The notes under the pieces are model-generated. The model searched no databases. It was not told the DNA's origin and saw nothing but the letters and a program-made list of their open reading frames with translations. The position numbers were made by a program, and so were the translations under genes. DNA of 33,709 nucleotides from Candidatus Martarchaeota archaeon (lineage in GTDB: Archaea > Micrarchaeota > Micrarchaeia > Micrarchaeales > Micrarchaeaceae). Shown here piece by piece: positions 27,563-31,102 of this stretch. Within the stretch, counting starts at the first letter, position 1. Each line of letters begins with the position of its first letter. The stretch is taken from the NCBI GenBank assembly GCA_023485505.1, contig JAMCZN010000010.1, positions 1 to 33,709 on the forward strand, written 5' to 3'.

Positions 27563-30379
27563 CTAAGTAGGTGTTGCTAAAGGTGGTGTTGTATAAACAT
27601 AAGTCACTACTGCACCATTCCCACCGTTTCCTCCTGCTGTGCCTCCCGGATAAAAATTACCATTACCAAGGCCACCAATCCCGCCTAAAACGTTTACACC
27701 AATGGTGTTTGGTGTGATATTTCCTGATTTATATGCCAGAATGACAATTCCGCCCCCTCCGCCTGCGCCTCCACTTCCAAGGACATTGGCGCTCTGGCCA
27801 TCGATCCCATTTGCAAGAATAGTCCCAGTTATAATATTAGATGCCTGAATGTATAGGCCAGATGAACCAAGACCGCCGCCCATTCCTATTCCACCCATCA
27901 TTATTTCATTTGTTGTCTGATTGATGATTGATGCGCAAGAGGATCCACCCCCTCCTCCACCCGCACCACTAAGATAGTTCTGGAATCTATCGTTATGCCA
28001 CGATTGTATGTTTGAATTTGTAACAGCAATGTTGCCTCCGTTATTTCCATTTCCTCCAGGAGCAGATCCAACCCCTGCTCCAGTTCCACCGATAACTAGT
28101 GTATTGCCTCCATTCCCTCCATCACCTACACATAGATCATGCCCAGCCTCTCCACCTCCTCCTCCACTTCCACCATAAGAATATGACACGCTAGTTCCTG
28201 AATTTCCATTGGAGTTATGGCCTAGTGTGCCTTGAGGTACCAGTGCTCCTCCGGAGTTTCCCGTTGCATCTGTTATTATAACGCCGTAATTAATGAAATT
28301 TCCGCCAATCCATATATTATGTCCATCAGTAGTAAGGTTTACTCCATTGTCTACTGTGATTGATCCTGAAGCGCTGACGTCATTGGAAAGCGTTGTTGCG
28401 GTATTGTATGTGATTGAACCGATGCAGGCTCCCCCAGTCCAGTTGTTAGAACATATAAGTACGTTTGACGATAGCACGGTTACTGTGTTTGATATGGACA
28501 AAAATGAAAATGGAATGGAGGTTCCAGTATCTATGGCAAGCAAAGAGAAGATATAGTTTCCAATCGTGGCTGGAGTGTAAGTAAATACCACATTGCCACC
28601 ATTACTGGATATTGTTTTTGTCGAAACTATGTTTGCAGAAAGTATAAGGTCAGTGACAAATGGGCCAAACCCAACATTTGATGGTATTGTAGCGGTTATG
28701 TTTACAGACTGACCTAATGTTATGAATGTACTGCTTGGAATCATTGTTATTGTTGGCGTGGTTGCAACAAGTACGTTGTCTGAAATAGAATAATGGAGTT
28801 TCCCATTCCCAGTTGTGGCAGTGACTGAGACTTCATATGCTGTATTAGAGGAGGGACTTACAACAATAGTACTGCCGTTGGTATTTGATATTGGGAAAAG
28901 TGTATTACTGTTACTTACGATGTACCATTGCCATATCAGGTTTCCTGAAGTGGGAGTAAGGTTTTCAGTCGCATTTAATGTAACAGACTGGCTATTGTCG
29001 AGTTTTGGCGTCTGCGGGAATATCGTTGGTGCTGTAAGGTTGTTTGGGTTTACTGTGATTAATGGAGAGGCTGTTGTGTAGTTGTATGCGACAGGATTTG
29101 GAGTTAATCCATTGTCTGATACAAATACTGCATATGTGACATTTGGTTTTGCCTGTGTTATTGTTATAGTGTCGTTTGTATAAGAATTCTTTATGAAGGT
29201 CCTTGCAAAGTTTGTCCTATTGACTATGTACCATTTGTATGTAAGATTTGAAGGGTTTGTCTCACCAAGTACAGTGGCATGTAGAACCACCTTATTGCTC
29301 TTTCCTTCTTTCAATGAGGTACTGGTTATGTTTGACACTCTAAGAGCACCATAAGTGATTCCGAAGGACGTACCATCTGGGGTAATCGGGTCCGGTGTTG
29401 CTAAGATTGAGAAGTTTGGAGACATTATGTATTTTAGATGTGGCAGTGAACCTAATGGTGCTATTCTACCGTTCATATCAACAATTTCTGCCCTGAATCC
29501 TGATGGCGCAAAATCTTCACCAAAGTTTGAGTAACCAAAATTTGGAAAAGGTTGAAAACTCGAACAATTGTTCGCACACGGATCTTCTTCTACGAAATCT
29601 GCAATTGATTGAAATGAATTATATGTAACATTTCCAAATGCGACCCAACTCTGATTCATATCCCCAATAAAGATAAACCAAGTTTTACTAGATTGATTAA
29701 CAATCTTTATCTCCGCATACATCGTATCGTTAGCACCAATTGGCAACGAGAATATCCCATTGGAACTTAGAGTGTGGTTAGTTGTGAGAACACGAGGTTG
29801 GCCAGATGTAGAAAAAGACAGCAGTTCATATACTGGAAAATATTGCCCTAGCAAATAAGTATTCCCATTGAGAGTCCCTATAGAATATTTAGAATTTGAA
29901 AATGTACCAACTTGTATAAGTTGTGAGTCATTAAGCATACCGCCTATGCCTATCCATTGTGCTGATTGTAGCAACGAGGAAGATGATTGATATGGTACTG
30001 ATTGTACCTTCCACGACCCAGCAATTGCACTTACGCTATAGGGTTTTGCATAGAAGTTATTTGCTCCTGTTATGTTATATATTGCAGAGTATCCTGCCCA
30101 ATTTGATGGTCCATTATTATCTGTGGCTTGTTGAGATGCCAAACTAACTCCATTTGTAGTTAAAACGTTTCCTATAGAGGCATAATTTGCAGATATATTA
30201 TAAACATTGAAGCCTGACGCCTTCCAATTCGAAATATTATCTAAAATATTTACTGGTTCTATTTGGCTAAAATTTAGATGGAGTCTTTGTGAATTATTGG
30301 CAAAAGATACGTTTGATAATATGATTATACTTATAATAAATAAGACCCTCCCAGTTGCCGGGTGGCCTGCCCTGTTCAA
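27563..30379 (-). CDS. secreted G1 (eqolisin)-type glutamic peptidase with Ig-like and Gly-rich regions
   Basis: 938 residues. A signal peptide (RVLFIISIIILSNVSFA, 11-27) is followed by a domain at about 88-300 that matches family G1 acid peptidases: SNWAGYSA (92-99), QWIGIGG (141-147), LIQVGT with Gln156, YFPVYELL, then ADFVEEDP with Glu265, and PFPNFGYSNFGEDF. In scytalidoglutamic peptidase the catalytic pair is Gln53 (ILQTG) and Glu136 (FIIEDF), and these contexts align. Residues about 340-640 form Ig-like segments, two containing WYIV. Residues about 690-925 are glycine-rich with G6 runs, resembling secreted beta-helical Gly-rich proteins. There is no C-terminal membrane anchor. The start is TTG; no better one precedes the signal peptide. 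It is AT-richer than its neighbours. A secreted protease active at low pH is expected; an inactive binding protein is the alternative. Confidence 0.72.
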   Translation of the reverse strand: MNRAGHPATGRVLFIISIIILSNVSFANNSQRLHLNFSQIEPVNILDNISNWKASGFNVYNISANYASIGNVLTTNGVSLASQQATDNNGPSNWAGYSAIYNITGANNFYAKPYSVSAIAGSWKVQSVPYQSSSSLLQSAQWIGIGGMLNDSQLIQVGTFSNSKYSIGTLNGNTYLLGQYFPVYELLSFSTSGQPRVLTTNHTLSSNGIFSLPIGANDTMYAEIKIVNQSSKTWFIFIGDMNQSWVAFGNVTYNSFQSIADFVEEDPCANNCSSFQPFPNFGYSNFGEDFAPSGFRAEIVDMNGRIAPLGSLPHLKYIMSPNFSILATPDPITPDGTSFGITYGALRVSNITSTSLKEGKSNKVVLHATVLGETNPSNLTYKWYIVNRTNFARTFIKNSYTNDTITITQAKPNVTYAVFVSDNGLTPNPVAYNYTTASPLITVNPNNLTAPTIFPQTPKLDNSQSVTLNATENLTPTSGNLIWQWYIVSNSNTLFPISNTNGSTIVVSPSSNTAYEVSVTATTGNGKLHYSISDNVLVATTPTITMIPSSTFITLGQSVNITATIPSNVGFGPFVTDLILSANIVSTKTISSNGGNVVFTYTPATIGNYIFSLLAIDTGTSIPFSFLSISNTVTVLSSNVLICSNNWTGGACIGSITYNTATTLSNDVSASGSITVDNGVNLTTDGHNIWIGGNFINYGVIITDATGNSGGALVPQGTLGHNSNGNSGTSVSYSYGGSGGGGGEAGHDLCVGDGGNGGNTLVIGGTGAGVGSAPGGNGNNGGNIAVTNSNIQSWHNDRFQNYLSGAGGGGGGSSCASIINQTTNEIMMGGIGMGGGLGSSGLYIQASNIITGTILANGIDGQSANVLGSGGAGGGGGIVILAYKSGNITPNTIGVNVLGGIGGLGNGNFYPGGTAGGNGGNGAVVTYVYTTPPLATPT

Positions 30380-30437: not shown

Positions 30438-30752
30438 ATGAAGAATGCGATTCGAAATAGTAGAGGTAAATATACCATAATACCACTAGTTATTTTTTTA
30501 GAAACATTTATATCCGAATTCGGTTTAATTTTGTTCTACTATAAGAGTAATTTGGGTCTCTTCCTTTTTTTTGTGGGAGCTATATCTTTGATTATAACGT
30601 ATGTTGCTATTCTTAGGGCTAACAAATATGCAAAAAAGACTAGAAAAACTCTTTTTTACATATTAATTGTTTCGGGTATCTTAGGTTTAGGCATTATCTT
30701 TCTACTTTCTTATTTTATCGCTTTTGGTGCAACTTTTCGTTTAGGCCCATAA
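30438..30752 (+). CDS. small membrane protein (three segments)
   Basis: 104 residues with hydrophobic segments at about 13-34 (IIPLVIFLETFISEFGLILFYY), 38-60 (LGLFLFFVGAISLIITYVAIL) and 72-97, separated by a basic loop (RANKYAKKTRKT). No family is recognised. It is AT-rich and leaves the peptidase gene head to head over a 58-nt shared promoter. The following gene encodes a similar protein, so the two probably form a duplicated pair. Possible roles include surface anchoring, export or protection from the protease; none is shown by the sequence. Confidence 0.62.
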   Translation: MKNAIRNSRGKYTIIPLVIFLETFISEFGLILFYYKSNLGLFLFFVGAISLIITYVAILRANKYAKKTRKTLFYILIVSGILGLGIIFLLSYFIAFGATFRLGP

Positions 30753-30790
30753 TAGTTAAAAGTCGGTAAGCATAATATATGTGACGACGT

Positions 30791-31102
30791 ATGACTTATA
30801 ATTCTAGAAAGTCAAAATCTAAAGCCAATAAGATAATATTAGTTAGTTTGCTTTATATTGTATTCATATTTCTATTAAACTCTTATTTAATTTTGTACTA
30901 TAGTCCATTATCTGGTTTATGTTTGTTTGTAATTATTTTTATTAGCGGAAGTGTATACTATTTAATTTCAGGGTCTAGAGACGCTGTTATAAAAATCATT
31001 TACTTTTCCTTGCTAGCAATTATCGTGTCATACTTAATGTTAGAAATAGCTGCAATCATGACTAGTTCTGGTCAATACCCACTTGGACACATTATAAAGT
31101 AA
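30791..31102 (+). CDS. small membrane protein, likely paralogue of the preceding gene
   Basis: 103 residues with three or so hydrophobic segments (IILVSLLYIVFIFLLNSYLIL, GLCLFVIIFISGSVYYLI, IIYFSLLAIIVSYLMLEIAA) and a basic N-terminus (SRKSKSKANK). The segment LILYYSPLSGLCLF aligns with LILFYYKSNLGLFLF of the upstream protein, and the lengths match, so a tandem duplication is likely. GTGAC lies 5 nt before the ATG. 38 nt separate the two genes, which are probably one transcript. Confidence 0.6.
   Translation: MTYNSRKSKSKANKIILVSLLYIVFIFLLNSYLILYYSPLSGLCLFVIIFISGSVYYLISGSRDAVIKIIYFSLLAIIVSYLMLEIAAIMTSSGQYPLGHIIK

Follow-up and report, generated by a model that had tools for sequence, protein, structure and literature searches.

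The 938-residue protein described here, encoded in the window (the whole stretch of 33,709 nucleotides that was analysed), carries a domain that, judged from sequence profiles and a predicted fold, belongs, as a divergent member, to peptidase family G1 (eqolisin, PF01828). We consider it probable that the protein is a glutamic-class (G1) acid endopeptidase that is secreted and displayed at the cell surface, and in which Gln156 and Glu265 would be the catalytic residues. From the N-terminus it comprises a probable signal peptide, the G1 domain, about three Ig-like domains and a conserved Gly-rich module without a Pfam family. Residues 1-27 are its sole hydrophobic segment of transmembrane strength, and residues 28-92 are a possible propeptide, because their position and length resemble those of the propeptides of characterised G1 enzymes. 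The features are as follows, with SGP standing for scytalidoglutamic peptidase.

27563-30379, minus strand: whole open reading frame, 938 residues, secreted multi-domain protein, TTG start
30299-30379, minus strand: probable Sec signal peptide, residues 1-27 (NRAGHPATGRVLFIISIIILSNVSFA), read from the sequence
30104-30298, minus strand: segment from the signal peptide to the G1 domain, residues 28-92, possible propeptide
29330-30103, minus strand: G1 (eqolisin) peptidase domain, residues 93-350, from profiles and predicted fold
29912-29914, minus strand: codon of Gln156, equivalent to SGP Gln53 by alignment
29585-29587, minus strand: codon of Glu265, equivalent to SGP Glu136 by alignment
28475-29329, minus strand: stalk of about three Ig-like/PKD-like domains, residues 351-635, from weak sub-threshold Pfam matches (PF22352, PF13927)
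28476-29403, minus strand: sharply bounded tract also present in the paralogue of contig C39, 928 bp at 87% DNA identity
27566-28474, minus strand: conserved Gly-rich C-terminal module, residues 636-938, without Pfam family or PDB fold match

The neighbours of this reading frame are ordinary archaeal chromosomal genes, including those for elongation factor 1-alpha, ribosomal protein S10, a CDC48-type AAA ATPase, a protein with HMG-CoA synthase domains and a DUF2666 protein. The source genome comprises 0.75 Mb in 43 contigs and is 73% complete, and close relatives of the G1 domain sit in Candidatus Micrarchaeota genomes. Viral contigs scanned for the G1 protein gave no match, and there is therefore no sign of a viral origin of the gene. 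Just upstream, on the opposite strand, two small hydrophobic open reading frames (104 and 103 residues; 30438-31102) occupy a low-GC stretch and have no Pfam match.

Family membership and active site

All six G1 landmarks named in the initial annotation are present in the reading frame in the claimed order (NWAG at residue 93, QWIGIGG at 141, LIQVGT at 154 with Gln156, PVYELL at 182, ADFVEEDP at 260 with Glu265, and PFPNFGYSNF at 277). The domain had been placed at residues 88-300 (29480-30118); a G1 domain is present there, but its homologous part continues to about residue 350 (29330). The proposed identity of this secreted archaeal protein as a G1 family member is supported by the profiles of its relatives and by the predicted fold, while the suggested comparison with PF01828 gave a divided result: the window domain alone reaches 17.5-20.9 bits (E 7e-4 to 2.6e-4), below the cut-off of 22.3 bits, whereas 21 of 24 aligned family members match the model (best E 9e-28), individual relatives as strongly as E 3.6e-23. 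Pfam and NCBIfam scans with the full-length protein yielded no significant G1 match, PF01828 being absent from the listing; no G1 enzyme was retrieved when the PDB sequences were searched with the window protein as single query, and a first scan of genome contigs using the window protein alone gave no match. Since the direct match is sub-threshold, proof of membership depends on the relatives and the fold, and the null direct scans are not counted as refutation because the relatives' profile is decisive. When a profile was built from 20 Micrarchaeota relatives with the window protein and its three closest relatives set aside, the window domain reached 152 bits (E 2e-44) against it; the best among 2000 shuffled versions of the domain had E 2. 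In a PDB search the family profile retrieved both aspergilloglutamic peptidase (2.6e-19) and SGP (3.9e-15), which a ten-sequence profile without the window protein also retrieved (4.1e-16 and 1.6e-12, respectively).

The AlphaFold model of the domain (pLDDT 80.5, pTM 0.84) has the double beta-sheet sandwich fold of G1. Its first match in a fold search of the PDB is SGP (E 2.4e-9, target TM 0.71-0.72), with which it is superposable, as the initial annotation had envisaged; aspergilloglutamic peptidase and neprosin follow, all top matches being glutamic peptidases.

With SGP positions counted from the printed family-profile alignment, Gln156 aligns with Gln53 and Glu265 with Glu136, so that both catalytic contexts are matched as previously asserted. 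Together with the superposable fold, this alignment suggests that the two side chains may face one cleft. All of 24 relatives have the Gln of the dyad and 23 have the Glu; when the set is widened to 56, 55 have the Gln and 54 the Glu. No fused protein is found among the rows of the wider set without a dyad residue, all fused proteins aligned keeping both. Trp39 and Glu69 of SGP are retained as Trp142 and Glu185. Four glycines held to be required in G1, G8, G41, G44 and G55 (PMC6154417), are kept as G96, G144, G147 and G158, of which G96 and G158 are invariant across the 24 relatives and G144 and G147 are read from the alignment. Trp67 of SGP positions Gln53 and stacks on the substrate (PMC6154417). 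Its equivalent in the window protein is Val183, and Val is also found in the sister protein; since 50 of 56 relatives have Trp or Phe here, the window domain departs from most of its family in carrying no substrate-stacking residue at position 67. We treat Trp67 as a specificity feature and not as defining membership of G1. Further changes are Asp43 to Gly, Asp57 to Phe, Pro72 to Ser and Phe138 to Pro, of which the Gly and the Pro are the state in most of the family, and the change of Asp43 to Gly is regarded as acceptable (PMC6154417). From the residues changed at positions 67, 43, 57, 72 and 138 it follows that the active site has drifted, and the domain would be an enzyme with an altered cleft whose specificity or strength may differ.

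Loss of catalytic residues was seen in other homologues. Two stand-alone copies (L014 of genome G050, 1198-2154, and the second copy of L071, frame from 2388) lack one or both, the replacements being Gln for Glu, and Ser and Thr for Gln and Glu. A Bacillota protein (L117, 1-2799) consists of an upstream part with a GTSLAAP motif, which by eye has the look of a sedolisin/subtilisin-type peptidase, then Big_1 repeats, and then a G1 domain in which both catalytic residues are Ala; the G1 fold can therefore persist without catalysis.

Fused architecture and proposed function

The mounting on Ig-like segments and a Gly-rich tail, which had been pointed out as unusual, is real and recurs across the phylum. 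Many Micrarchaeota G1 copies are stand-alone proteins of about 280-400 residues, but no fewer than 15 belong to reading frames of 900-2465 residues, from several genera and both families sampled. In these fused proteins Ig-like/PKD-like repeats are followed by varied ends (DUF2341-type, Kelch-like, beta-propeller or Gly-rich). About 70 G1 matches in Thermoplasmata include none in a frame longer than 712 residues, and thus no fused form. The tree has at least four alternations between fused and stand-alone forms on well-supported branches, and the fusion was therefore gained or lost repeatedly. Since the Bacillota protein joins G1 to Big_1 repeats, a long fused G1 protein is not unique to Micrarchaeota.

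For the Gly-rich tail (residues 636-938) nine relatives can be aligned, with a mean column identity of 51% and invariant Trp and Tyr, which rules out mere low complexity. Several of the tail relatives form the extreme C-terminus of other secreted proteins. The conserved module measures about 280 residues, and the secreted Micrarchaeota proteins that bear it are unrelated to one another (e.g. G000:C23:27658-28425). A Pfam scan of the tail found no family, and a PDB fold search with its moderate model (pLDDT 72) found no match; the C-terminus of the window protein shows neither a membrane anchor nor a known sorting signal. From its position, we infer an attachment role for the tail.

We propose that the N-terminal signal peptide exports the protein, and that the segment of about 60 residues behind it probably holds the enzyme inactive until low pH removes it, as judged from fungal and bacterial G1 peptidases. 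The beta-sandwich would then cleave peptide bonds using Gln156 and Glu265, whose equivalence to the SGP dyad is established, while the Ig-like stalk and the Gly-rich module would keep the catalytic domain distant from, yet attached to, the cell surface or extracellular matrix. The cell would probably use it to feed on or remodel proteins, either those of its acid surroundings or those of a partner archaeon. The related organism Mia14 is reported to depend on a Thermoplasmatales partner and to be rich in PKD and LamG-like surface proteins (PMC5498576), which fits, without proving, a substrate on the partner surface.

An active G1 domain could instead have its own protein (in cis) or sister surface proteins as its main targets, trimming or releasing surface proteins rather than degrading food proteins. 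It is mounted on Ig-like and DUF2341 modules of the kind from which these cells construct their surface proteins (PMC5498576, on Mia14). Against this, secreted relatives that consist of G1 alone are common in the same phylum, and we regard such a role as rather unlikely. It is unlikely as well that the G1 domain has little or no catalytic activity and now serves, on top of a surface stalk, as an adhesin or a head that binds proteins. The changed cleft residues (Val for Trp67, Phe for Asp57 and Ser for Pro72), a PF01828 score far below those of stand-alone relatives and the bacterial G1 domain with Ala for both catalytic residues in a large Big_1-repeat protein would agree with this, but the dyad and the four key glycines are kept in both the window protein and its sister protein, which are only 45-48% identical, and the dyad is kept in every fused protein aligned. 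Similarity by chance, or a convergent beta-sandwich without relation to G1, is extremely improbable: the direct Pfam match under the cut-off and the direct PDB sequence search without a G1 enzyme would speak for it, but it is refuted by the profile built without the window protein and by the leave-out profile, and the G1 structures at the top of the fold search and the conserved dyad stand against it too.

Mosaic structure of the gene

The source genome holds one other G1-domain match, on contig C39. Between the two proteins the G1 domains (residues 93-325) are 30% identical and the stalks 78-93%, while the ends are unrelated. The shared 928-bp tract (residues 326-635; 7677-8604 in L032) is sharply bounded at gene positions 977 and 1904, beyond which identity drops to 30-50%. 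On the tree the window G1 domain groups with that of G108, a genome of another family (99/90 support), and not with C39; the stalks oppose this tree, the window stalk being 78-93% identical to that of C39 and about 35% to that of G108. This mosaic is best accounted for by an exchange between paralogues, through either partial gene conversion or transfer of a segment. Genome G067 independently has a mosaic of the same kind: the G1 parts of its two paralogues have about 50% amino-acid identity, and a 541-bp stalk tract is 97% identical (L040 4368-4908, L096 246-786). Such copying of stalks between sister genes appears undescribed.

A collapsed assembly repeat with C39 is ruled out for the tract as a whole by its 13% divergence. 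A mis-join inside a 116-bp identical run could have swapped the tails of both G1 genes of the source genome, and the assignment of the Gly-rich tail to the window gene therefore carries caution. More broadly, Micrarchaeota might possess modular surface-mounted glutamic proteases and pass the catalytic head, the Ig stalk and the terminal module from one paralogue to another through local gene conversion; each cell would then own a shifting repertoire of acid proteases directed against surface proteins of the partner cell. We consider this wider scenario quite doubtful.

Significance and comparison with known G1 systems

The genomes of Micrarchaeota are small, and these cells presumably live at the expense of partner archaea. 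A surface-mounted acid protease would be a concrete, expressible candidate for the contact between Micrarchaeota and their partners. Few G1 enzymes have been characterised, and the family offers divergent ones, changed in the cleft, to set beside them; it also indicates that peptidase head, stalk and terminal module can recombine inside one genome.

The domain was found in 24 of 148 related genomes searched and in 43 of 301 genomes of the Micrarchaeota phylum. It is further present in 42 of 250 Thermoplasmata-class genomes, about one-sixth of those sampled, and in records of Nitrososphaeria, Bacillota, Actinomycetes and Parachlamydia; the archaeal and bacterial relatives include acidophiles, among them Thermogymnomonas acidicola. 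Publications on G1 peptidases of prokaryotes go back to 2010 (PMC3009609; PMC6154417), with pepG1 of Alicyclobacillus characterised and homologues of Acidilobus and Caldivirga listed (PMC3009609). A G1 peptidase in an archaeon is therefore not novel, and in the open-access literature we found no paper linking G1 peptidases with Micrarchaeota.

The large secreted Ig/PKD-type surface proteins of the Micrarchaeota-type organism Mia14, which is related to ARMAN-2, resemble the window protein, and the DUF2341-like tails of sister G1 proteins extend this likeness; the passages of that report covered here describe PKD and LamG-like modules and mention no peptidase domain (PMC5498576). Neprosin-type glutamic prolyl endopeptidases (PDB 7zvb) are a weaker match to the predicted fold (target TM 0.52), and the sequence signature and best structural match of the window protein are those of G1. 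With SGP (MEROPS G1, PF01828; PDB 1s2b, 2ifr, 2ifw) it has in common the predicted fold, the Gln/Glu dyad, W39, E69, the four glycines and, as predicted from its N-terminus, secretion. However, SGP is a small single-domain fungal enzyme with a mature chain of 206 residues, whereas the window protein has Val for Trp67 and Gly for Asp43, no disulphides were seen to match those of SGP, and about 590 residues of stalk and tail follow its catalytic domain. The bacterial and archaeal G1 peptidases of Alicyclobacillus, Acidilobus and Caldivirga (PMC3009609) share with it the prokaryotic origin, the acid setting and common motifs. Nearly all prokaryotic G1 proteins sampled outside Micrarchaeota are stand-alone and of about 250-400 residues, in contrast to the fused window protein. 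The apparent novelty thus lies in the architecture, as the combination of a G1 head with an Ig stalk and a Gly-rich end appears undescribed.
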